From: a virus
Direction: 5' to 3' (one strand)
IMG/VR virus record: IMGVR_UViG_3300010300_000100
Coordinates: 1 to 24,496 of that record
DNA length: 24,496 nucleotides
Every line of letters begins with the position of its first letter. Within the stretch, counting starts at the first letter, position 1. A program made the translations under genes and the position numbers. This document shows positions 3,844-23,102 of the stretch, piece after piece. The notes under the pieces were generated by a model that saw only the letters and a list, made by a program, of their open reading frames with translations, was not told the origin of the DNA and did no database searches.

Positions 3844-4205
3844 ACATAGTAGAACAGGTGTTCGTATGGGTGACTGTTACGGGGATTGTTTTCAATCTCT
3901 GGCGCATCGCTCTGCGTAACTACAGCTATCGGGCCAACGTCCCGAAGAGACTACTGCAGATCAAAGAGAAGATCGAATCAGGCAAGCCACCGCGTGGCCT
4001 GTGGTCTTCCCTACGTGTCGAGCCTATGTTCGACGCCCACTATCGACGGATACCGGGCCGACTGTCCTGCACTGTCTTGCCACTACAAGTAAACAAAGAA
4101 AACGTCTGGCAACTGCGTGTGGGCTTCAGGCCTACCGCTGCCAGCCGACCCTCCCACTTTATATCTATTCCCGTATATTCGAACGGACAAATCTATGACC
4201 AATAA
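3840..4205 (+). CDS. Membrane-anchored small protein, paralogue of the protein at 4811
   Basis: The 121-residue protein starts in an ATGA overlap with the previous gene. Residues 5-22 (EQVFVWVTVTGIVFNLWR) form one N-terminal membrane segment; the rest is basic and soluble. It shares an unusual architecture with the protein at 4811-5149: a membrane anchor, then RVEPMF (here) or RVEPTF (there), a following double arginine, and a C-terminus ending Y-x-x-GQIY plus two residues. This points to an old duplication within the phage. Topology is likely N-out with a cytoplasmic C-domain, or the reverse. Function is unknown. Confidence 0.65.
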   Translation: MNIVEQVFVWVTVTGIVFNLWRIALRNYSYRANVPKRLLQIKEKIESGKPPRGLWSSLRVEPMFDAHYRRIPGRLSCTVLPLQVNKENVWQLRVGFRPTAASRPSHFISIPVYSNGQIYDQ

Positions 4206-4209
4206 TACA

Positions 4210-4219
4210 TAACCTAATG
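4210..4219 (+). promoter_or_regulatory. TAACCTAATG start context, variant copy 4
   Basis: This is the same motif as the other three copies with one extra A before the TG. It contains the ATG of the Myb-like gene at 4217. Confidence 0.35.
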
Positions 4220-4498
4220 AAACGTAAGATTACACGTCGTCGATGGACGACAGACGAGATCGAGTTCATCAAGTCCAACGCGCACAAGATGAGCAACTAC
4301 GAGATTGCATCCACCCTGGGCCGTACGCCTATGGCTATCTACGAGATGCGTGGACGACTCAAGATGGAGCGCGGTACGATGCCTAAGAAGGACCGCAACG
4401 TGGTCCCCAATGCCATCAAACCATCAAGCGACAAGGTCAAGCTGGTTCAGAAGTTCAGCTTGTTCTGGGGCTTGGTAACTGTTGAGAAGCCATTGTGA
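4217..4498 (+). CDS. Myb/SANT-like helix-turn-helix DNA-binding protein
   Basis: The first 50 residues contain a Myb/SANT-like or sigma-like helix-turn-helix: RRRWTTDEIEFIKSNAHKM, then YEIASTLGRTPMAIYEMRGR with the second segment as the likely recognition helix. Trp10 and the basic N-terminus (MKRKITRRRW) fit DNA contact. The C-terminal 40 residues are basic and lack a recognised domain. Many phages encode proteins of this kind, some fused to or serving as transcription regulators. It could regulate early or late promoters, but no operator is assigned. The stop overlaps the next start in a TGATG junction. Confidence 0.7.
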   Translation: MKRKITRRRWTTDEIEFIKSNAHKMSNYEIASTLGRTPMAIYEMRGRLKMERGTMPKKDRNVVPNAIKPSSDKVKLVQKFSLFWGLVTVEKPL

Positions 4499-4875
4499 TG
4501 CACGACATCGGTGTACGCATCTTCCATTGGTGTAAGCGCAGTGGCGCTCAGCGCACAGCCCTGACCAAGCCAGCTGCCAAGATGATCTCAGACACGATGC
4601 ATAGCATTCATCTTGACCTGTGGAACATCCGGAAGACCTCTATGCGCGAGACGGGTATGCTTTGTCGCTACCTGTCTCGCCTTCACCGTAGCGTAGAGGT
4701 GCTGGCCTTCCAATGCGGACTGCATGGACTGGCTATCGACACTGACGGCCTGCTCGAGATCCAAAGCGAACTCAAGGAGGCGATTGACAACCTACTCAAC
4801 TACCCCTCAGATGATTATAGTGGCTTTACCCATCGCATTGGCCGCCCTATTGGTGGCATACTTACTGCTCGATAA
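4498..4875 (+). CDS. Helical protein of unknown function
   Basis: An ATG at 4498 shares its A with the previous stop; a GTG at 4495 is an alternative and adds one residue. The 125-residue product is helical and basic in its first half, with several histidines and cysteines but no spaced metal motif, and an acidic helix (LLEIQSELKEAIDNLL) near residue 90. The last 65 bases overlap the start of the next gene in a different frame, a longer overlap than elsewhere on this strand. No family is recognised. Confidence 0.55.
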   Translation: MHDIGVRIFHWCKRSGAQRTALTKPAAKMISDTMHSIHLDLWNIRKTSMRETGMLCRYLSRLHRSVEVLAFQCGLHGLAIDTDGLLEIQSELKEAIDNLLNYPSDDYSGFTHRIGRPIGGILTAR

Positions 4876-11211: not shown

Positions 11212-11414
11212 AAGCCCTGCTTTGCCAGCAACACCTTCAGCTCGTGGATACCTTCCACGCACTCCTTGAGCATGCCTTTGAGTTCCGACTGATCGCTTTC
11301 TAGCCGGTAGACCCGGCCCTTGAGTTTCGCCACTTCGCTGTTCAGGCTAACCCATACACCTATCGCCGTGACGATAGATGGCGCCAACGCCATCACAAAA
11401 TCCATGTCCTCCAT
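11208..11414 (-). CDS. Holin-like protein: one membrane segment plus coiled coil
   Basis: The 68-residue protein has one hydrophobic segment (residues 7-24, VMALAPSIVTAIGVWVSL) followed by a heptad-rich helix to the end (EVAKLKGRVYRLESDQSELK...). It sits directly upstream of the amidase with an ATGA overlap, the usual place of a holin or of an XhlA-like lysis helper. XhlA-type proteins carry the membrane segment at the C-terminus, so the order is reversed here. Holin or lysis-accessory function is inferred from context and topology. Confidence 0.65.
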   Translation of the reverse strand: MEDMDFVMALAPSIVTAIGVWVSLNSEVAKLKGRVYRLESDQSELKGMLKECVEGIHELKVLLAKQGL

Positions 11415-13294
11415 TATTCTGAGTAAATTTTCGATGCTCCGTTTTCGTCTACTTTGATGTAAATGCCGCCGGGCAACTCGTCGCCCAATCGGAATACCTT
11501 GCGTCCTGACAGATCGTAGTAACCGTAGATGCCTTCAGGCAGGGTGCCCGCTTCGATGCTGCGTGTAGGCTGCATGACAAGGCCAGCTGTGCAATCGGTG
11601 CCCCACAAAGGGAAGAACGCCAGAAAGTCCTCCACGTCTACGTCGTCATCACCATCCAGATCATAAGCACAGTTCTGCGTGCAGCCAAAGTTGAGCAGCA
11701 GGTCCAAGAGATCCGCATTGCCAACCACGCCGTCCTGATCGAAGTCTCCCAGGCAGGGTTCTCCATCCTCAACGCAGAAGGGTACCTCCAGCTGACTCCA
11801 ATCCCCACTGACATCAACCGTGATCATGTTGTCGTTTACCCACATCACCACTTCTCCGCCGTAAGGGATGCCGTCACCACCGTTGTCATAGATCATCAGT
11901 GTGTAGCAATCGTCATACAGGCATTGGTCGTACTGACGGAGCGTGATGCCCGCAGCCCAAGGTCCATCTTGCTGTATGGTCTGCCCCTCGCTATCGAACA
12001 GCGCCCATGCCGTCTCACTGCCAAAGAAATCAGAGGTGAAGTCCATGCGCCATAGATCACCCTCTTCGTACAACACGAACCCTGACGCTTGGTTGTTCGC
12101 AGGGTACTGATCCCCAAGCGCGATGACTTCAACCACAAAGCCACCGTCAATGGCAGCATCTTCAACCACTACTTCAATGCTGGTGTTTGGGGCTACGTCG
12201 AAAACCTCTTCGGTGTACACCCCGTTGCTCGATGTGATCTGTACAGTAGCCATCCCATACTCCGTGGTCCCTGTGTTGGCAAGGCCTACCTTGACGTCTT
12301 GTTCCAGCAAGCAGAACTGCTCCTCGTAGTCGAGGTACTGGATACCTAGATCGAACTCCACTGGCGGGAGACACTTCAGCCCATTCGCCAGGTTGGGACG
12401 ACCAGTCTCTATCGTCTGATGCATGCGCTCTGCCTGACCTTCCGTAAAGGCCTCTCTACAGATCTCGCCCGTGTAGTCCATGTAGTTGTCCACTAGGGCG
12501 TCAGGGCACGACGGTGCGGAACAGATCCAGTTCGTAGTTGTTGGTGGCGTATCGCACACTCTATCGCCAGCGACCAAGCAGTTGCCTCCCTGATCACAGC
12601 TAGTGGTATTTTCAAACGTGTGCAGCAACCCCAGGTAGTGGCCCATCTCGTGGCTAAGGACCTTGCCCAGGTTGTAGCCATCATCCTCCAACCTGCTTGA
12701 TAGCATCACGATGCCGTCCAGGCAGTTGTTGGTTGGGCCTACATAGGCGTACCCCTGGATACCACCACCGCCGTTGTTGCCATTGATCTCAGGCACGACA
12801 TATATGTTGACGTACTCATCGACGTTCCAGCATCCCAGCGACTTGAGACTACCGTCGGGATACCCATCATCGAGTCCTGATACAGCCACCCCGTCGGCCA
12901 TAAACTGAGCGATGCCGCTGAGGTCGTAGCGTACGATGCCTGTTGTTGGTGCGCCAAAGGGATCGCGCTGCGCTAGACATAGGTTGATCTTCGTGTCCAC
13001 ACCGCTGCCATCACCCGTGCCGCCAGGCACCTTACGGAACTGTTCGTTCATGCGGTCCAGGCTGTAAAGGATGTCGGAGTCTGGCAGGTTATGGGAAGTG
13101 CCATTGGGCACCCCCTTGTGCATGATGTGAAAGACGACAGGTAGTGTGACTTCCTCCACGTCATCGAGACGTACGCTGTGCTTAAACACGCCGCCGAAGC
13201 CCATGTATACCGGGCTTGTCAGCTGCGCACATTCCTCCTGCGCAGAGCACAAGAGGATGGCCATTCCAAGTAGTGTTGTTAGTAGGTATTTCAT
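11414..13294 (-). CDS. Secreted M43 (pappalysin-like) metalloprotease with dockerin-like region and T9SS-type sorting domain
   Basis: The 626-residue precursor has a signal peptide (MKYLLTTLLGMAILLCSA, likely cleaved before QE). The catalytic domain contains the zinc motif HEMGHYLGLLH (His215, Glu216, His219, Gly222, His225), a CDTPPT segment near 247 and the Met-turn NYMDY near 270, all typical of M43B proteases. A CARDB-like beta domain (about 313-405) and a second beta domain (about 408-510) follow. Two EF-hand-like dockerin loops (DFDQDGVVGNADLLDLL, DLDGDDDVDVEDFLAFF) lie at about 515-565. The last 40 residues (YGYYDLSGRKVF, GGIYIKVDENG) resemble the type A sorting domain of the T9SS, found only in Bacteroidota. 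The gene overlaps its upstream neighbour by 4 bases (ATGA) and its downstream one by 1 (TAATG). Confidence 0.85.
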   Translation of the reverse strand: MKYLLTTLLGMAILLCSAQEECAQLTSPVYMGFGGVFKHSVRLDDVEEVTLPVVFHIMHKGVPNGTSHNLPDSDILYSLDRMNEQFRKVPGGTGDGSGVDTKINLCLAQRDPFGAPTTGIVRYDLSGIAQFMADGVAVSGLDDGYPDGSLKSLGCWNVDEYVNIYVVPEINGNNGGGGIQGYAYVGPTNNCLDGIVMLSSRLEDDGYNLGKVLSHEMGHYLGLLHTFENTTSCDQGGNCLVAGDRVCDTPPTTTNWICSAPSCPDALVDNYMDYTGEICREAFTEGQAERMHQTIETGRPNLANGLKCLPPVEFDLGIQYLDYEEQFCLLEQDVKVGLANTGTTEYGMATVQITSSNGVYTEEVFDVAPNTSIEVVVEDAAIDGGFVVEVIALGDQYPANNQASGFVLYEEGDLWRMDFTSDFFGSETAWALFDSEGQTIQQDGPWAAGITLRQYDQCLYDDCYTLMIYDNGGDGIPYGGEVVMWVNDNMITVDVSGDWSQLEVPFCVEDGEPCLGDFDQDGVVGNADLLDLLLNFGCTQNCAYDLDGDDDVDVEDFLAFFPLWGTDCTAGLVMQPTRSIEAGTLPEGIYGYYDLSGRKVFRLGDELPGGIYIKVDENGASKIYSE

Positions 13295-13701
13295 TCTAAA
13301 CTATCATCAGGGTAAAAGAATCCTTCCTTGAGCATGTAGGTCACATCTCGCAAGGTGACTGTTGATGGAAGCATTACTCCAAACGTCAGTATGGTACTCT
13401 GGTGGATGCTACTTGACAAGAAGTATCGCTCCGCTTCAGACACCTCTGGGAAAAGAGCCACGAGTCGTTCCAGAACCGCTTCGGGGTGACACTCGATGAG
13501 CCTGTCAGTGAAGACCTCTAGCGCAGCTCTTCCTTCCTGTATAGGATGATCTATGACACTGAACAGCTTGACGCCCTTCTCGTCCTCACGCTGAATGTGG
13601 ACAGGCCTGCTAATATTGTAGAGTTCTCTGCTGATAGCTTCAGCGCGCTCCTTGCTCCTGAGCAGACCTTGAGGTTCAATATTGATAAAAGCTTGACTCA
13701 T
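13291..13701 (-). CDS. Protein of unknown function downstream of the hub/fibre gene
   Basis: The 136-residue soluble product has two helical halves (LLRSKERAEAISRELYNISR, HPEAVLERLVALFPEVSEAE) and ends FFYPDDSLE. No domain is recognised. It overlaps the large tail gene by four bases and the protease by four bases. The location suggests a virion component, a tail-fibre chaperone or a late accessory protein. Confidence 0.6.
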   Translation of the reverse strand: MSQAFINIEPQGLLRSKERAEAISRELYNISRPVHIQREDEKGVKLFSVIDHPIQEGRAALEVFTDRLIECHPEAVLERLVALFPEVSEAERYFLSSSIHQSTILTFGVMLPSTVTLRDVTYMLKEGFFYPDDSLE

Positions 13702-16700
13702 GGATTGTAATCATCTCCGATGTCGTGATACGTGTTCATCTCGTTGTGAATGGTGCCCATATCGCTCAGCTCTAGATCGCCGTCGTCGCTGTCAGTCGCG
13801 AAGAACACCAACTCGTGAATGTAACCGTTGAAATATATAGAGTTCAGCCCAGTTCCTATTTGAGCACCGACATGCATGATCTCACTGCCTGGGTTGTCGT
13901 CTCGAAATAAGGTGGTATAGTCGTTTGATGCGCTGCCATTGGCGGGTACTGAGGGGTAGAACGTTCCATTCAAAATTGCCTGGTTGTTCCCTAGCCTTCT
14001 AAGCGTGCTGATCCAGACGTTGGACGTTTCCTCACCTATTGAATCAGTGGCAGTGTCTAACTTATACTGCTGGTTGCTGTCGGATCTATGTTGGTGCCTA
14101 AGCTTATCACCATTTCCGAGGATTGCTACCTGAAAAACCTGTTGACCAAGATTCGCTCCACCATTGCCTGATCGCCACAAAGCCGTAATAGGTCTTGCAG
14201 ATGAATCATCCAGAGAACTGAACACAGCTGCGACAGTGTTGGCTGCACTGCCTAGCAGCGGTGTAGGGTCCGTCAATCGCAATCGTTCAAAATTGGAAAA
14301 TTCCAGGCACGGCGTAGTGGCAATGTTGTTGAACGATGATTGGGCAGGAATGTTATTATATAAGGTCGGGCGTGAGTTGGCTACGTTTGCGTCTTGAGTC
14401 AAATGGTTCGTGCCATACTGATCGTACCACGTGATTATCTCGTACGTGCCGTCTAGATCTCCATTCTGGTCCAAAGTCAGTCCAGTCGTGTCCAAGTCAC
14501 CGTTGTCATCCCAGCCGACATTGATGAAGTTTTGTCCATCGGTGACACGCACAAGATAGTCCGTCGTTGTATCGGTAAGCAACCTGCGCAATCCGTACGC
14601 CGCTGTGAGTTCGTCGGTGTAGTCATCGAGAGGGTAGGTCACGTCGTCAACGATCTCGTGGGTGATCAGGAAAGTGTAGTTCGTGCGCTTCTTGGCTGCT
14701 GATGGGTTTGTATCCGCAGTGTCAAAATCGTACTCCCCTAGGAACTCACGGATAACACGGTAGGCCGCTGCGTTCGTCACACCATCCTGCAAGGCCAATT
14801 CAGTAGGGAACGATGGCCCTGTCGAAATCCATGTTGAGTCCGTATCCCTTAACGATCCAAAGCCAATATAGATCTTGCGCCTGCTGAACTGACCCTCACC
14901 GGGAGTAGCGGTATCTTCCTCGATGTACAGACCTGTCTGGTCTAGCTGCACCATGTATACCGTCTCCAAAGTCTCGTTGGCCCCAAGGACAGATGACCAA
15001 TCGGCGTTGAAATTGGTTTCGCATGCAGGGTCCAATCGACCATAGCGCAGCGCTTGATCGAAACGCTTGTCAGGGGTGCTGCCAGACTCGAAGGTGAAGC
15101 CATCAATGCCTACCGGATTCTCATCATCGTCGATGCTGATGAATTGCAGCTTGTTGCTATGCTCCCCTACAGTATTGTCAATCCCACCTATGTCTGTGGT
15201 GGAGTTCGTAAACGTTTCGAAGCCTACGGCGTTACCGCCCAATCCAGGCTTGACTACCCACTTGCCACCACCCTTGTAGGTTGTAACAGTACCCACATCT
15301 TGGTATCCCTCTATGTCCGCATAGCGCGTAGACCGAGCAACTAGAAACTCCCCGCTGACGCCACCGTTCATAGTCCAAGTCTGAGCTGTAGGCAGCAGGG
15401 TCCTGGTGTTGGTTTTATCCAGCTGATCGGTTTCAATCAACCGCCATGGCGCAGGCAGCGTAGGCGCTGACGCCTTCGGGATATAGGTTCCCGCGTAGTA
15501 TCGCTGCATCTCGCCTACCAGCTCCAGGTATTCCGTAGCAACAAGGGCATGGAGACTATCGTACGGCTCCTTGATGGGTGAGGCAGTCAGGTCGTTCCCG
15601 TGCGTTGTCCACCGTAGATTCTCCACGTAGTTGTCTGTAAATACCGAAGCACTGCTCTTCACCCTGCCCCATAGCGTACCCCAGACATGGGTGTTACGGA
15701 ACTGCAACCTAGACCCGAGACGTGAGCTTCCAACGTCAAGGATTTCTACAGCCTTGGTGTCCTCGTTGTCCACGCGGGTGATGACGTCAAAGTCATCATT
15801 GCCATCGCCAAGGAAGAGGCATGCACCAACAAACGTCACTTCCTTTGGGAAGTAGTAGTATCCCGGAATAAAACCTACCACGCCACCGATGTTGCCGAAG
15901 TTTACATTCTCATTCACCTGCTGTATCCCACCCGTGCCATCGGCATAGGCGCTACGCCACAGGGGATCGTGAATGTTTTGCTGCGGACCCAATAGAGGGA
16001 TCGTGCCAGCAAAGTAATCGCCATCAGGGTCGTTGTAGGTGGTATGGTTCCGTCGCGGGCCATGGTTCGGTAGCCACACCTCGACGCCTTGCTCCGTATA
16101 GAACTCCTTCCACACCGTGTCGTCAACGTCATTGTACAGTGGTAGCTCGAAACGGATGTTCTCCAGCATGTACTGGTTGTGCGTATTCTCGTTGTTGGTG
16201 AGTTCAAAGATGACGCCACCACCATCGCAGGATGTATCCTCGCCTTGGATTTGACATGCGATAGGTGCGTAAGTAGCTCCGTTGTACTGCTGGCAAACGG
16301 GATAGGCTTCGGTGCCCCAATCGTCACCGGAGTTGACACTGTCACCATGAGGCATGATGATCTCGTACCACGCGTCGTCGTAATCGTCCGATGGAGTGCC
16401 TGTGCCATCCCAGTACACCCACGTGAAAGATCGATACAGCTTCCTGTAGTACATGTTGTCGACGGCCTTGTCGATGCGGATGCCGTCTAGATCCGACCCC
16501 TCGGAAGTGTTGATGTGCGTGTATACCTTCCTGCTTAGCCTGGTGTACCGTCCATCTTCGTCTTTGAACTGGATGCGCACTCGGGCAATCATGGTCTGCC
16601 CCGCCAAGGTATAGGTCACGTTGGCTGTGGTGTACCGGAAAAGCGCTGCCACACCCATCTGAAAGCGCAGGTTCTGCCCACTGTTCAGGGTGAGGTCTGT

Positions 16701-18038
16701 CACTGTCTCCGCCTCAAAACCCATATAACCGCTGGGGTCAGCTGGGTATTTGTAGTGGTTGAAATTTATGTATTCACTACCAAACGCTGGGTCCTGGTTT
16801 GGTATCTGAGGATCCACTTGGCTGTCATAAACCTTGAAGACGTACTGCCGATGGTTGGTATCACCAGGGATAAAATTGTTGTGCTGGTCCGTAGCTGTAG
16901 ATCCCGGTCTTGTGTTGGCCCATACACCGCCAGCCCAGATACGGTCGCTACCCCCCTCTTCGTGAGTCATAACTGCTGATCCGAATGGGAAGTTGCGCGT
17001 CTCTACCGCGCCAGCCAGCCATAGGTAGTCATCATCAAAATCGTTAGTGAGCATAACCGCCTCGTCATCTTCGTTCATGACGATGGCGTTCAACCCATTT
17101 TCCCAGTCTGCATAGATCTCGTAGCGATGCGACTTGGTGTCCGTGGTTTGGAATGACAAAGCTTGCCTATTGACAATCCAGTAGCAGCCACGCCAGTGGC
17201 AGACGATAGCGCCAAACGTCTTGCAGATGTCCTCCAGCACGTCAGCTGTATTGTACAGTACTCTTTTTGGTGCAGGCTCCCGCAAGCGATCGCGTTCTTT
17301 CTTTTTACCCCTAAAGGTCTTGCCGTAGACCTTGAGCCTTCGGAGGATGCTGTTCTGCGGGCGCCACTTGTAGAAGGTGCCGTCATCTACCTGCAAGCTG
17401 AATGGACCGTAGTCAGCCTCGTATCCCGGTAGTCCTACCTCACGGAACGAAACAATGCTAGTGGTTAGGACAGGAAGTACGCTCGTCGATGCAAATCGTT
17501 CTAGGATGAAGTCGTGAGCTGGAATCTTGGTGAAGCATGCCGCAAGCCAAAAATCCAATGACTTAAAGCCTACATAGGCTGCGGGCGGAGACACGGTCGT
17601 GCTGCCAAACTCGCGAAGGTTGAGTTGCCCCAACCCATCGGTCCATTGCGCGGTCATGGTGATAGACTCATTCTCCACCACGAAAGAGATCGACTCAGCA
17701 AGAAGGTTGCCATACCACTCTAGTTCATCCTTGTCTGCAGTATCGCCCCTGTACATCACCAGGATGATCTCGTCTTCACTAAGCTCTAAGATCGTCCCCC
17801 ACTTGTCGTACTGAGCCTCCGTCAGGTTTGCAGTAAACGACAGGCTGCTACCCATGATGGCCCGTACCAAGTCCCTATCACCCTGCCACTGGATCTGTAT
17901 CCCTGGGTCGAAGAGTTCTAGCTCCTGACCTTTTCCAGGTAGCGCCCCTTGCGTAGCCCGGGCGTAGATCTCCACCAGGTATTCCTTGCCTGTGGTCCGC
18001 TGACCATAAACTGTACTGAAGTGCTTCGTATACGCCAT
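13698..18038 (-). CDS. Large tail hub / receptor-binding protein with C-terminal lectin-like domain
   Basis: This 1446-residue protein follows the tape measure gene (one shared base, TAATG), the usual place of the distal tail/hub protein and fibre. The first ~300 residues are a beta-rich domain (EYLVEIYARATQGALPGKGQ, AQYDKWGTILELSEDEIILV) like baseplate hub proteins of Bacteroidota phages. Repeated beta-rich domains follow. Residues about 1146-1440 resemble a concanavalin A/LamG-like or GH54-type jelly roll: AYGLRRLLTDTTTDYLVRVT, then GWDDNGDLDT, WYDQYGTNH and LEFSNFERLRL. That domain most likely binds or trims a surface glycan and so sets host range. I cannot identify catalytic residues, so enzyme activity is open. 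Confidence 0.8.
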   Translation of the reverse strand: MAYTKHFSTVYGQRTTGKEYLVEIYARATQGALPGKGQELELFDPGIQIQWQGDRDLVRAIMGSSLSFTANLTEAQYDKWGTILELSEDEIILVMYRGDTADKDELEWYGNLLAESISFVVENESITMTAQWTDGLGQLNLREFGSTTVSPPAAYVGFKSLDFWLAACFTKIPAHDFILERFASTSVLPVLTTSIVSFREVGLPGYEADYGPFSLQVDDGTFYKWRPQNSILRRLKVYGKTFRGKKKERDRLREPAPKRVLYNTADVLEDICKTFGAIVCHWRGCYWIVNRQALSFQTTDTKSHRYEIYADWENGLNAIVMNEDDEAVMLTNDFDDDYLWLAGAVETRNFPFGSAVMTHEEGGSDRIWAGGVWANTRPGSTATDQHNNFIPGDTNHRQYVFKVYDSQVDPQIPNQDPAFGSEYINFNHYKYPADPSGYMGFEAETVTDLTLNSGQNLRFQMGVAALFRYTTANVTYTLAGQTMIARVRIQFKDEDGRYTRLSRKVYTHINTSEGSDLDGIRIDKAVDNMYYRKLYRSFTWVYWDGTGTPSDDYDDAWYEIIMPHGDSVNSGDDWGTEAYPVCQQYNGATYAPIACQIQGEDTSCDGGGVIFELTNNENTHNQYMLENIRFELPLYNDVDDTVWKEFYTEQGVEVWLPNHGPRRNHTTYNDPDGDYFAGTIPLLGPQQNIHDPLWRSAYADGTGGIQQVNENVNFGNIGGVVGFIPGYYYFPKEVTFVGACLFLGDGNDDFDVITRVDNEDTKAVEILDVGSSRLGSRLQFRNTHVWGTLWGRVKSSASVFTDNYVENLRWTTHGNDLTASPIKEPYDSLHALVATEYLELVGEMQRYYAGTYIPKASAPTLPAPWRLIETDQLDKTNTRTLLPTAQTWTMNGGVSGEFLVARSTRYADIEGYQDVGTVTTYKGGGKWVVKPGLGGNAVGFETFTNSTTDIGGIDNTVGEHSNKLQFISIDDDENPVGIDGFTFESGSTPDKRFDQALRYGRLDPACETNFNADWSSVLGANETLETVYMVQLDQTGLYIEEDTATPGEGQFSRRKIYIGFGSLRDTDSTWISTGPSFPTELALQDGVTNAAAYRVIREFLGEYDFDTADTNPSAAKKRTNYTFLITHEIVDDVTYPLDDYTDELTAAYGLRRLLTDTTTDYLVRVTDGQNFINVGWDDNGDLDTTGLTLDQNGDLDGTYEIITWYDQYGTNHLTQDANVANSRPTLYNNIPAQSSFNNIATTPCLEFSNFERLRLTDPTPLLGSAANTVAAVFSSLDDSSARPITALWRSGNGGANLGQQVFQVAILGNGDKLRHQHRSDSNQQYKLDTATDSIGEETSNVWISTLRRLGNNQAILNGTFYPSVPANGSASNDYTTLFRDDNPGSEIMHVGAQIGTGLNSIYFNGYIHELVFFATDSDDGDLELSDMGTIHNEMNTYHDIGDDYNP

Positions 18039-21000
18039 TATCCAAAAGTACGATCGAGAGCGCGTTTGCCTCGTTGGTTGATCAGTACGAGGTCGGTACC
18101 GACGATACCTCCCTCTACTTTGATAGTTGGTTGTGTGCCCCCTTCACCTTGAGCGGGTCCAGATACTGTGTTGGATTTGATGCCCGTGAGGCCACTGCCA
18201 ATGAACGACCCCAAACCACCCTGCGTCGCTGCTGCTGCGGCACCCCGAAAGCCCCCTGATCCAACGGTGGCTCCCCCTGAGACAATAGCCAGGATGGTGT
18301 ACAAGGCGATCAAGGTGATAAGCTTTGCGACAAGGGCGTAGAAGGTGTCGAGGAAAGACTTCTTCAAAACAGTAAAGAAGTCTGCACCATCGCGTGCTGC
18401 CTGCAAGAACGCGTCACCAAGGAACTGTACCTGGCTGCCAAGGAACGAGGTAAGGGTGGCGGCATTGGCGATGTCTTCCTGTGCCTGCAACGAGATGCCA
18501 AGCTGCTCCTCTGCCTGTAGCAAACCAGCCGACTCCGCTGCTGTGAGCTTGCGTTGATCCCTTAGCTTACGGTAAGCCTCTACGAGCTTGGTAAGATCCT
18601 CTACCTGCTTGTTCGTCTGCGTGCTGAGGTCTACATCCCTTCCTAGGCTTTCGGCAATGCTCAGCTGTCCCAGTGCCTCGTTCGCGTCGTCAACCGCATC
18701 CTCCAGCTTTTGGATGTCCACCTGATTGATGGCTTCGTTCAGAGCAAGAATGCTGCGACGGAACTCACCTTCACTAATCTCCCCTAGCAGGAACCCTTGA
18801 GATAGGATGTTGACTTTCTCACTTGCGCGCTGTGCTGCTGCCTGCAATACGTCAAGCTCCGTGGCAGCGCCAAGGATGCGCTTGAACTGCAACGCTGTCG
18901 CACTGGCGTTAGTAGCAGAATCGGTGAACTCCTCGAAAGCCTGACGGAACTGAGCGCGTTCAATCCTCTCCTTTATCTCGTCGATCTGGTCCGCTACAAA
19001 AGAGAGTGACCCACCACGGACACCGGCCTGAGCTAGGCCTGTAAACTGCGCTTGCAATGCCGACAGCTCAGCTTGCAAGAACTGCAACTCCGTGCTTTGA
19101 CCTAGCTCACGTGTGGCTTCATTCAGCAGTTGGGCTTCAACGCGAGCGCTACGGATGCCAGCCACCTTGATGTCTTGCTCAAGCTTGCGCTGCAGGCGTT
19201 CGTAGCTGGTTACACCTTTGTCAATCAGGTCGGCCACTTCCACTGCCCCTGACGTAGCTGCTGCTACTGCCGTCTTGCTCAGCTCGGCGATGATGCTGTC
19301 TACCAGCTTTTTCTGCTGCTCCAAGGTCCCGCCACCAGCGATTAGGTCGCCCAAGAAGTTCTGCGCCTCTGGGATGCCACCTGTCTCCAAGATTCTGAGG
19401 AGACCAAAGTCCTTGATCCTAGCGATCTCGTCGCTTACATCGTAGATGTCGTTTTTCGCCAGGCCGAACTCAGCCAGTGCCTTGGCAATATTGTCTTGCG
19501 TTTTCGCCCATCCTTTCTGCAGAGCATCGATGTTCGTGACGCTGTTGCCGAACTCCGCACCATACTGCTGAGCCAGTACGAGCTGTTCGTCGGCAAGATC
19601 TTTTAGCTTCTGCTGCTTTTCCTGAATGGCCGCCGTGACAACTTCAAGCTGTTTCTGCAGCCTATATTCATTGGCGAGGAGAACGTTGCGGTCCCTGCGG
19701 ACACCATTGATACCCTCTTCATTGCTGCGTACGATACCCAGACTTCTAAGTATCACACCAACACCAAAGCCCGCTCCAAACCCGCCTCCGGCAAGTTCCC
19801 CTAGTTGCTGGCTGCCGAGATCCTCCCGCGCATCCGTGACTGCCTCGAGCGCCTCCTCAGTTTGCTTCTTCAGAGCCTGCAGTGCAGGCAATGAGGAATT
19901 GGAAATATTGCCACCAACCTCTGTAGCTAGATCAGAAAAAGTCTCCAGCGCACCGTTGATCTTTTCCTGGTTTTGCAGGTACTGCTTCTGCTGAAGCGCA
20001 TTGAAAGCAATAACACCGACAAGAGCGGTTAGACCTGCTGTTGCAGCTACGGTGCTGAGTCCCAACGCGAGCAATGCGCCACCGAGCTGTGAGATGACTA
20101 CGATCAGAACAGGAATCACTGTACCCATCGTGATGAACAGACCAATCCCTTCTTTGGTATTCTCACTTACAGTGTCGAAGCGCTTCGCAGCCAGCTGAAG
20201 CAAATCAGCAGCAATTGCCACGAATGGCGCTAGTCCTTCCCCAAGGGAAATAGACAGGTCTTCAACACCCGCCTTCGCCCGTGCTGTAGAAAGGAACAAC
20301 TGCTCTCCAAGTCCAGCGTTCAAAGCATCTAGCGCCCCCTTGCTGTCCTTGAGTTTTTGCTCAAGAAGCTTGATCTCAGTCGGCAACTGAGCGATAACAG
20401 CACCGGCTAGACCCGCTCTGTTTTTAAGAAGGTCGAAGATCTGCGCCGTATCAAGCGTGCCTGACTCCAACAATCGGATCTGGTCCTCCCCAAAGCCGAG
20501 TTCTTTACCAAGCCGAATGATGGTGGTCTTCAGACGCGTACCACCACGCTCTGCTTTCTGGCCTGCATTGGCGAGGGCTCCAAGGGTAGCCACTGTTCGC
20601 TCTAGGTCGTAACCACTAATCTTGGCTACGGAACCTACGTTCTTCAAGGCGCCGGCCAGGTTGTCTACGTCGAGGGCGCTGTTTTGGAAAGCGACGGCGA
20701 AGATGTCACCGATCTCTTCGAAACTCCTGGTCTCTCCAGTAAACTCACGGAACTGCCGCTGCGTCTCTGCAATGCTGGTACCGACCTTGTCTAGGCTACC
20801 GCCGAATATCTGGCTGAGCTTAACAGAAGTAGTCAGGGCGCCAGACGCTTCCTGCGCATTGAAACCAAGCTTGGTAAGTTCCAGCGCAAGCGTGGCCGTC
20901 TCCGTAGATGTAAACTTGGTCTCTCTACCTAGATCCCTGGCTGTGGAAATAAGGCCTTCAATGCCTTCTTGGCCGATGGCACGCAGCTGCGTGGAGATCT

Positions 21001-21208
21001 CACTGAAGTTGCTGGCGATGCCCAACGAAGCAGCGCCGATCAAACCTAACCCCAAGCTGAGGGTACGTGTAAGACCGGCGCCGAAGCGTTGCGCTTGTTG
21101 TTGGAATCTGGCTATTTCGGTGCGAGCGATCTCGCTGTTACGCATGAACTGCGTAATATCCAGAGTTAGAATCGCCGACAGCCGGCTTGCACCTGTAATT
21201 CCAATCAT
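18038..21208 (-). CDS. Tail tape measure protein
   Basis: The 1056-residue protein begins with a TP901-type tape-measure domain (LTLDITQFMRNSEIARTEIA, then EISTQLRAIGQEGIEGLIST, TALELTKLG-like repeats and LANAGQKAERGGTRLK). It has long helical, coiled-coil-rich stretches and hydrophobic segments at about residues 45-68, 350-405 and 945-985 (LVAKLITLIALYTILAIVSG), as expected for a protein that sits in the tail tube and later enters the host membrane. Using about 0.15 nm per residue, the tail would be near 160 nm, consistent with a siphovirus. It overlaps the chaperone gene by four bases. Confidence 0.95.
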   Translation of the reverse strand: MIGITGASRLSAILTLDITQFMRNSEIARTEIARFQQQAQRFGAGLTRTLSLGLGLIGAASLGIASNFSEISTQLRAIGQEGIEGLISTARDLGRETKFTSTETATLALELTKLGFNAQEASGALTTSVKLSQIFGGSLDKVGTSIAETQRQFREFTGETRSFEEIGDIFAVAFQNSALDVDNLAGALKNVGSVAKISGYDLERTVATLGALANAGQKAERGGTRLKTTIIRLGKELGFGEDQIRLLESGTLDTAQIFDLLKNRAGLAGAVIAQLPTEIKLLEQKLKDSKGALDALNAGLGEQLFLSTARAKAGVEDLSISLGEGLAPFVAIAADLLQLAAKRFDTVSENTKEGIGLFITMGTVIPVLIVVISQLGGALLALGLSTVAATAGLTALVGVIAFNALQQKQYLQNQEKINGALETFSDLATEVGGNISNSSLPALQALKKQTEEALEAVTDAREDLGSQQLGELAGGGFGAGFGVGVILRSLGIVRSNEEGINGVRRDRNVLLANEYRLQKQLEVVTAAIQEKQQKLKDLADEQLVLAQQYGAEFGNSVTNIDALQKGWAKTQDNIAKALAEFGLAKNDIYDVSDEIARIKDFGLLRILETGGIPEAQNFLGDLIAGGGTLEQQKKLVDSIIAELSKTAVAAATSGAVEVADLIDKGVTSYERLQRKLEQDIKVAGIRSARVEAQLLNEATRELGQSTELQFLQAELSALQAQFTGLAQAGVRGGSLSFVADQIDEIKERIERAQFRQAFEEFTDSATNASATALQFKRILGAATELDVLQAAAQRASEKVNILSQGFLLGEISEGEFRRSILALNEAINQVDIQKLEDAVDDANEALGQLSIAESLGRDVDLSTQTNKQVEDLTKLVEAYRKLRDQRKLTAAESAGLLQAEEQLGISLQAQEDIANAATLTSFLGSQVQFLGDAFLQAARDGADFFTVLKKSFLDTFYALVAKLITLIALYTILAIVSGGATVGSGGFRGAAAAATQGGLGSFIGSGLTGIKSNTVSGPAQGEGGTQPTIKVEGGIVGTDLVLINQRGKRALDRTFG

Positions 21209-21531
21209 TTGAATTCTCTCATTTTCTCCAGCAGAGCCTCCGCTTCAGCAGCGTTGGATACTTGATCAGTCTGTTTGCTGTAAGGGTGGAACTGATCCGG
21301 AGTGAATCGCTTGCCCTTACCACTATTTACGTTTGCCAGCAGGCAAAGGATGGAAGCTGTGTGGTCCCACATCCGGGACTCCTTGGCTTGATAGCCTTCG
21401 TAGAACCACGCATACTCCCGTAAAGTCATCCCCCAAAACTCATCAGGCTTCAGCCCTATGGCGAGGCCCGTTTTATACAGCAGTTCCCAGGTGAGCTCTT
21501 GGCCCTGACCGCTGCCTTTGGGGGTTACGAG
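21205..21531 (-). CDS. Frameshift extension of the tail assembly chaperone (GT-type)
   Basis: Reading from the -1 slip at 21531, an uninterrupted frame of 108 codons starts LVTPKGSGQGQELTWELLYK, passes an internal ATG at 21429 (MTLREYAWFYEG) and ends just inside the tape measure start. The segment LYKTGLAIGLKPDEFWGMTL matches the C-terminal domains of G-T type chaperones, where a short helical T domain contacts the tail tube. The fusion product would be 218 residues (110 plus 108). A stand-alone 74-residue protein from 21429 is possible but less likely because the conserved FW segment would be lost. Confidence 0.85.
   Translation of the reverse strand, partial: LVTPKGSGQGQELTWELLYKTGLAIGLKPDEFWGMTLREYAWFYEGYQAKESRMWDHTASILCLLANVNSGKGKRFTPDQFHPYSKQTDQVSNAAEAEALLEKMREFK
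21478..21514 (-). promoter_or_regulatory. Candidate stimulatory stem-loop downstream of the slippery site
   Basis: On the minus strand CAGCGGT and CAGG pair with CCTG and ACTGCTG, giving seven plus four pairs with one G-U, a three-base bulge and a 12-base loop. It starts 16 bases after the slippery site; 5-9 bases is more usual, so its role is tentative. Confidence 0.45.
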
Positions 21532-21860
21532 TTTCCCTTGACGTCGTCTGCTCCACCAAGCGCTCCGGTGACCGCCTCCACCATAAGGTTGAGTTGGTCC
21601 TCGTCAGCAAGCACCTGCGCGCAAAAGGTTTCGAAGTCGGGGAGACCGCTATCCTTGCCCGAACGCGCTGCTTCATTTTTGATGCCGTAGTAAGCGAATG
21701 CCGGGATCGCCGTGAGGGGATCGTCGTTCATCCACTTGTCGATTTCAGATAGCTTGACGCCAAATGCAATCGTCATCAGACGCAGGGCGTTGAGTGAAAG
21801 GCTCGCCTTGTGAGTCTTCTTACCTAGCTTGATAGAGAATTGACCTTGTAAAGTATTCAT
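21525..21860 (-). CDS. Tail assembly chaperone (G-type, zero-frame product)
   Basis: The 111-residue protein opens MNTLQGQFSIKLGKKTHKAS, followed by LSLNALRLMTIAFGVKLSEI and a helical C-terminus (FETFCAQVLADEDQLNLMVE, AVTGALGG). It matches the layout of tail assembly chaperones placed just before tape measure genes. These proteins coat the tape measure during tail assembly and leave the finished tail. The slippery heptamer GGGAAAC covers its last few codons, and the zero-frame stop follows six bases later, so it should be the more abundant of two products. The start lies 14 bases after an intercistronic hairpin. Confidence 0.85.
   Translation of the reverse strand: MNTLQGQFSIKLGKKTHKASLSLNALRLMTIAFGVKLSEIDKWMNDDPLTAIPAFAYYGIKNEAARSGKDSGLPDFETFCAQVLADEDQLNLMVEAVTGALGGADDVKGNS
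21531..21537 (-). promoter_or_regulatory. -1 programmed ribosomal frameshift site GGGAAAC
   Basis: On the minus strand the heptamer reads G GGA AAC in the zero frame (codons AAG GGA AAC), the canonical X XXY YYZ pattern; lambda uses GGGAAAG in its G/GT genes. Slipping back one base joins the chaperone frame to the frame that continues to 21205. Confidence 0.9.
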
Positions 21861-21905: not shown

Positions 21906-22448
21906 TTATGCTGAGTATTTGTACAAGTCGTTGACACCAGTCATAGACACAGTGTAGGTGGCGATCTCGTCGACGCCGCCAGACAGGCTGACATTGTCAA
22001 GGAGTGCGATTCCGATGTACTCTACATCAGTGCCGTCCTTGTCGGTCTGGAACTTGACGATGACGTAGTTCGCGTCACGCGCGATGTCCATCAAAGTTTC
22101 ACCCGCGTCGTTGGAGTCCTGGATCAAACCGTCGCATGTGACTGTCCACTCCTGGTTGCTCTCCTGGATCGTGCCCCCCGTGCCGTTGCGCGCTACGTCC
22201 TCAACGGTGTTCGTCAAGTCGATAGAGCTAGAGGTCGCGGCTCCAGCCAAGGTGTAGGTCACCTCATTCCAAGCACCTGAGGAGTATTCCCCAAAGCCGA
22301 GGAAGGCCTTAGCTGAGGTGTGGTAGAGCTTGTTGCCGCCCGTGGTGTCTGCTGACGGAAGCTCTGTAGCCTCTACGGTCTCAGGCTGTGTCGTGCTGTC
22401 GTGATCGAAGAAGTAGATCGCGATGCAATTTGCGTTGATTACTGCCAT
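21906..22448 (-). CDS. Tail tube (major tail) protein, paralogue B
   Basis: The 180-residue product is beta-rich and acidic, starting MAVINANCIAIYFFDHDS. It shares with the upstream 214-residue protein a conserved core: S-x-DL-x-N-x-x-(E/D)-x-V-A-R-(D/N)-G, then DGLIQD, a (Y/F)V-x-V-x-F strand, NVSLSGG-x-DE and the C-terminal LYKY-x-A. These features and the place between the gp10-like gene and the chaperones identify a tail tube protein. The gap after it holds a strong hairpin that may lower expression of the chaperones. Confidence 0.8.
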   Translation of the reverse strand: MAVINANCIAIYFFDHDSTTQPETVEATELPSADTTGGNKLYHTSAKAFLGFGEYSSGAWNEVTYTLAGAATSSSIDLTNTVEDVARNGTGGTIQESNQEWTVTCDGLIQDSNDAGETLMDIARDANYVIVKFQTDKDGTDVEYIGIALLDNVSLSGGVDEIATYTVSMTGVNDLYKYSA

Positions 22449-22457
22449 GATTTCTGA

Positions 22458-23102
22458 TTATGCTTGGTACTTGTAAAGCTTACCGTAGCCACGAATGGTT
22501 ACTGAGTAAGTAGAGGTTTCGTCGAAGCCACCGGAGAGGCTGACGTTTTCAATGATGCCCTGACCGATGTAGTTTACATTCTCCTGGTTGTCAGCAGCAT
22601 CGTCCATCTCCTGGTTGTTCAAGACAAAGCGAACCAGAACATATTGGCTGTTACGTGCGTAGTCCATCATGGTCATCCCGCTGGCTTCGTCGCCAGCAAT
22701 GATGTCCTGAATAAGTCCGTCAGCGGTAAGAGACCAGGACTGCGCGCCACCCACGATAAAGGTTTCGCTACCACAATCCCCATCGCGAGCAACGACTTCA
22801 TCGATGCTGTTGTTAAGATCAAGGCTTGTAGAGGTAGCAGCGGCCATGAGTTCCAAATCACCTACGCCGTTTACCCAGGATCCGTTGTTATCATAACCGA
22901 TAGCTGGGCCAGATTGACCATCAGCGAAAACGTTGTCTGATGAGTCGACGAGGATGCCATATTCTCCATTAGCTGCATCTGCAAGAAAAGCGGTTTTTGC
23001 GTCTTGAACCGAAGATTCACCTGATTCAATACGATAGGCTGATGTCTGACCCGAATCGCCAAACGTGTACAGCCCTAAATAATTAGCGTTTAGTAGTGCC
23101 AT
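22458..23102 (-). CDS. Tail tube (major tail) protein, paralogue A
   Basis: The 214-residue product starts MALLNANYLGLYTFGD and carries the same core as its neighbour: STSLDLNNSIDEVVARDG, DGLIQD, YARNSQYVLVRF, NVSLSGGFDE and LYKYQA. It has a ~30-residue longer N-terminal half. Its gene is preceded by a 35-base AT-rich gap with an A-rich leader (AAAAACAAAACTCAAT before ATG), the largest gap in the late operon upstream of the hairpin, consistent with strong initiation of an abundant protein. Which paralogue forms the tube cannot be read from sequence. Confidence 0.8.
   Translation of the reverse strand: MALLNANYLGLYTFGDSGQTSAYRIESGESSVQDAKTAFLADAANGEYGILVDSSDNVFADGQSGPAIGYDNNGSWVNGVGDLELMAAATSTSLDLNNSIDEVVARDGDCGSETFIVGGAQSWSLTADGLIQDIIAGDEASGMTMMDYARNSQYVLVRFVLNNQEMDDAADNQENVNYIGQGIIENVSLSGGFDETSTYSVTIRGYGKLYKYQA

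Follow-up and report, generated by a model that had tools for sequence, protein, structure and literature searches.

The window, that is, the whole stretch of 24,496 nucleotides of viral DNA analysed here, contains two short adjoining open reading frames that lie between the genes for tail tube and tape measure proteins. The question raised by this locus is whether these frames are translated as two proteins or whether a fraction of ribosomes joins them by a programmed −1 frameshift, as had been claimed in an earlier note on this DNA. It is very probable that a long-tailed phage encodes here a G/GT pair of tail assembly chaperones of the lambda type, with a −1 ribosomal shift at the heptamer GGGAAAC. 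This reading, made from sequence, is supported by the frame geometry, the heptamer, its conservation in relatives, gene order and domain matches (the T profiles and the G fold match), and from these we infer that ribosomes slip, how efficiently they do so and what G and GT do in the window phage. The points that speak against it are the weakness of the heptamer, the lack in the window of the RNA structure found in relatives, a possible separate translation of T, and a G protein with no Pfam or PDB match. All features of the window described below are located on the minus strand.

Frame geometry, protein domains and neighbouring genes

The first frame (21525–21860) encodes a G-type protein of 111 amino acids and ends with the codons GTC AAG GGA AAC TCG TAA. 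A base-by-base check confirmed that the heptamer is located at 21531–21537, within AAG GGA AAC, as had been claimed, and that its phase in the G frame is G GGA AAC, as required for a −1 shift; an in-phase slippery heptamer of the X XXY YYZ type is thus present near the 3′ end of G. The zero-frame stop TAA (21525–21527), said in the earlier note to follow after two codons, is itself the second codon after AAC, and a single sense codon, TCG, intervenes. The −1 frame starts with CTC GTA ACC CCC AAA at 21531 and is free of stops up to TGA at 21207–21205, in agreement with the proposed open frame running through 21429 to 21205, and it contains, as DEFW, the EFW motif by which the T region had been recognized. 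The gap between the genes, given earlier as about 95 bases, is exactly 95 bases when counted from TAA to 21429, where the T frame has its first ATG. A short frame with a −1-frame extension is therefore present in the window, and the product of the slip would consist of 110 + 108 = 218 residues. As a word, GGGAAAC is not rare in the window (2 occurrences observed, 2.3 expected); within the G gene it is the sole in-phase X XXY YYZ sequence, and when the codons of this gene were shuffled 20,000 times, a strong heptamer (defined as GGGAAAC, GGGAAAG or AAAAAAG) occurred in phase within the last 12 codons in 0.9% of the shuffles. The description of the frameshift as canonical requires the caveat that G_GG.A_AA.C is named among the heptamers of low efficiency in E. 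coli (PMC4066793).

In the proposed mechanism, most ribosomes would read from 21860 to 21525 and terminate, with the G protein of 111 aa as their product. On G GGA AAC, a minority would slip one base back, tRNA-Gly would re-pair from GGA to GGG and tRNA-Asn from AAC to AAA, and these ribosomes would read on to 21205, giving the 218-aa GT fusion. As in lambda, the role of the G part may be to bind the tape measure protein, and that of the T part to recruit tail tube subunits.

The T-type extension (21205–21531; 108 codons and TGA) is related to known T and tail assembly chaperone families. It matches PF09550 (Phage_TAC_6) with an E value of 1.7e-5 and 25.6 bits, above the 23.4-bit cut-off, and PF06223 (Phage_tail_T) with an E value of 3.5e-4 and 21.4 bits, below the cut-off of 25.9 bits. 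Both profiles were matched by all ten aligned family members (E up to 0.1), the best PF06223 match among them reaching 6e-7. A search of annotated phages with the T protein returned three marginal matches, all in Bacillus phages, two of which are named tail assembly chaperone, and the structure search with the T model (pLDDT 74, a modest value) gave no match below E 0.001. The G protein has viral relatives at 39–71% identity. Its AlphaFold model (pLDDT 84.8) matches viral models in a structure search, one of the top three bearing the name tail assembly chaperone, and five of the ten aligned G family members weakly match phrog_2115 ('tail protein'). The window G protein alone matched no Pfam or PHROG profile, its fold search against the PDB gave nothing significant, and its search of annotated phages found no match. 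A0A0K1LMC7, a viral protein of 247 aa, was retrieved in the structure search with G as well as in that with T, which is consistent with a natural G–T fusion; the aligned ranges were not displayed.

It might be considered that G and T are translated separately, T being started at ATG 21429 or by re-initiation, with the heptamer incidental. The ATG exists, it defines the 74-aa frame that a gene caller would report (21205–21429), and the methionine is kept in seven of the ten aligned members. However, that frame begins only after 34 residues of the conserved T domain have passed. The invariant residues L13, Y19, G26, D30, F32 and W33 all precede ATG 21429, so an independent start there would give a truncated domain; at the same position L005 has TTG and both L025 and L027 have an isoleucine codon. 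In addition, the window contains no ATG, GTG or TTG from the heptamer to 21429, and separate translation would leave the exact conservation of the heptamer, described below, unexplained. Separate translation is therefore considered very unlikely.

The position of the pair agrees with its assignment as a tail assembly chaperone −1 frameshift pair. Upstream of it are two tail tube protein genes (22458–23102 and 21906–22448; PF06199, phrog_1407), and downstream is the gene of a 1056-aa tape measure protein (18038–21208; PF10145 with E 8e-25 and several tape-measure PHROGs). Since both members of the upstream tandem match Phage_tail_2/phrog_1407, the phage seems to carry two tail tube proteins that differ from each other. 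At the other end of the pair, the stop of T overlaps the start of the tape measure gene as ATGA (21205–21208), and in many relatives this junction is TGATG, TAATG or a very short spacing, which suggests that the tape measure might be translationally coupled to frame-shifted ribosomes. The tape measure gene is followed by a frame for a 1446-aa protein (13698–18038), probably a tail tip or receptor-binding protein, whose family match is one marginal PHROG only. Beyond the tail genes, a 626-aa protein (11414–13294) contains a Peptidase_M43 (pappalysin-type) metalloprotease domain and is weakly similar to a model of a Bacteroides metzincin lipoprotein. By eye, its C-terminus resembles the sorting domain of the Bacteroidota type IX secretion system; none of the NCBIfam sorting-domain models matched it.

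The shift site in related viral loci

For the putative shift site of the window, the decisive control is its conservation in relatives. Searches of viral contigs yielded, besides the window, 41 other distinct loci encoding both G and T domains, one of which comes from a second, near-identical contig of the window phage. In all 41, T is at a −1 offset from G and a slippery heptamer is located in phase near the zero-frame stop. This was the comparison across related phages called for in the earlier note; the contrary evidence named there, homologues with intact chaperones and neither heptamer nor frame linkage, did not overturn the linkage within the family. The heptamer is GGGAAAC in most loci, AAAAAAA in three (L031, L110 and L111), and five distant loci have GGGAAAG. 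Dereplication left 28 loci, 22 of the GGGAAAC type, including the window, and all seven bases are kept in 22 of these 22. The retention expected from codon usage alone, with the codons within and before the heptamer free to vary, is about 6% per sequence. In most relatives of this type the stop abuts the heptamer; in the window the heptamer is followed by TCG TAA.

A frame break of this kind could also be made in a single contig by a one-base sequencing or assembly error within one fused gene. However, the second contig of the same phage, which differs from the window at 21 positions in 5600 bases, has an identical shift site, indicating no assembly error, and the same −1 offset recurs in 40 further loci; an error is thus practically negligible as an explanation. 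Another way to obtain the fusion would be slippage of the polymerase during transcription instead of slippage of the ribosome. Long A runs are present at the site in a few distant relatives, such as L031, but the window site offers runs of just three G and three A. Slippage of bacterial polymerase generally requires much longer homopolymer runs. For the window, a transcriptional origin of the shift is highly improbable, and a −1 ribosomal shift remains the preferred reading. Transcriptional slippage is possible in the relatives L031, L032, L110 and L111, which shift at a run of A (AAAAAAA, in some of them longer) located 8–11 codons ahead of the stop.

Another observation concerns five distant T relatives of about 37–43% identity (L011, at 4179–4643, and L012, L014, L016 and L018). 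Their T frames are at a −1 offset from the upstream frame, and conserved T residues precede the internal ATG, which in L011 is the first one. No X XXY YYZ heptamer was found in the scanned overlap of these loci, and they perhaps use a non-canonical shift site.

The group consists of uncultured phages. Among phage records, a nucleotide search of annotated phages gave no match, and only the marginal protein matches mentioned above were obtained. A scan of bacterial and archaeal genomes found one distant locus only, in a Clostridia MAG, and for this reason no host is assigned.

Downstream RNA structure and other candidate stimulators

In the earlier note, a stem-loop at 21478–21514 was proposed as a possible stimulator of the shift. 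The pairing can be predicted, and its energy is that of shuffled sequences (z = +1.28, −0.35 and −0.18 against dinucleotide shuffles and −0.04 against synonymous-codon shuffles). Its 5′ arm begins about 15 nt after the heptamer, outside the spacing of 4–10 nt between heptamer and structure that was used as the criterion (PMC4066793). A weak 3-bp CCC/GGG extension could bring the base of the stem to 6 nt, with the total still within chance. The stem-loop was therefore rejected as a stimulator. Folding restricted to nested pairings and tested against shuffles detected no structure beyond chance 4–10 nt after the heptamer in the window.

The relatives present a different picture. Across the 22 GGGAAAC loci, the sequence downstream of the heptamer has a mean z of −1.9 against synonymous shuffles, compared with −0.18 for control windows (Wilcoxon P about 1e-6, a value that overstates independence because the sequences are related), and in most of these loci a hairpin begins 3–9 nt after the heptamer. 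The locus that departs most clearly from this pattern is the window. No excess of structure was seen in the six loci with other heptamers (mean z −0.44 compared with −0.47). A search with RNAalifold for a single stem conserved in the whole family gave an almost empty consensus, because the hairpins differ from one relative to another and are alike only in their distance.

A weak candidate for an upstream stimulator is the SD-like sequence GGTGGAG (21551–21557). SD-like motifs are found at a stimulatory spacing, 6–17 nt upstream of the heptamer, in 21 of the 28 loci, compared with about 8–33% of control positions; this excess could be explained by the codons for conserved Gly-Gly and acidic residues. 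A speculative model, which we regard as rather unlikely in its entirety, can be proposed for the family as a whole. It assumes that the weak GGGAAAC is paired with a hairpin conserved in position and variable in sequence, whereas the GGGAAAG relatives do without one, and that the window lost this hairpin, carries one more sense codon before the stop and may set its G:GT ratio otherwise, for example by the upstream SD-like GGTGGAG, by a stem or pseudoknot that has been remodelled and lies farther away, or by properties of host tRNAs. The comparison provides a small natural data set on the combination of a weak heptamer with RNA structure downstream of it in bacterial viruses.

Comparison with known systems

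A −1 shift in the tail chaperone genes is used by bacteriophage lambda and many other long-tailed phages. In lambda, the partner of gpG is the tape measure protein and that of the T portion of gpGT is the tail shaft subunit; the two chaperones are made at a molar ratio of 30:1, which is set by a −1 shift of low frequency (reviewed in PMC5009743, with citation of Levin 1993 and of Xu, Hendrix and Duda 2004, 2013, 2014). The window resembles lambda in the −1 shift proposed at the end of G, in a T extension with similarity to Phage_tail_T and in the location between tail tube and tape measure genes. It differs from lambda in that its heptamer ends in C (GGGAAAC; G_GGA_AAG is listed as the highly shift-prone form in E. 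coli, PMC5009743), its G protein is not detectable by Pfam and its T stop overlaps the tape measure start. For the tail assembly chaperone fusions tested in one other study, shift frequencies of 6–7% were reported (PMC3711429).

The same heptamer is known from other tailed viruses. In gp18/gp19 of Burkholderia phage KL1, GGGAAAC stands directly before the stop of the short protein (TGA in KL1) and a −1 fusion was predicted; this fusion has 264 aa, compared with 218 aa in the window, and unlike in the window a tail protein gene intervenes before the KL1 tape measure (PMC3483164). In Caulobacter phage Colossus, the chaperone gene that precedes the tape measure has a GGGAAAC −1 site. Colossus belongs to the phiCbK group, and the likeness noted here is one of description (PMC3556154). 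The g-t pair of the siphovirus HCTV-1 also has G_GGA_AAC, although its host is haloarchaeal (PMC5009743). The window's probable shift site leaves general understanding unchanged; what it adds is that the T extension can now be annotated as part of a fusion of 218 aa and no longer as a truncated frame of 74 aa. The mechanism proposed for it is ordinary, following the textbook case of lambda gpG/gpGT, with GGGAAAC before a stop already described in KL1.
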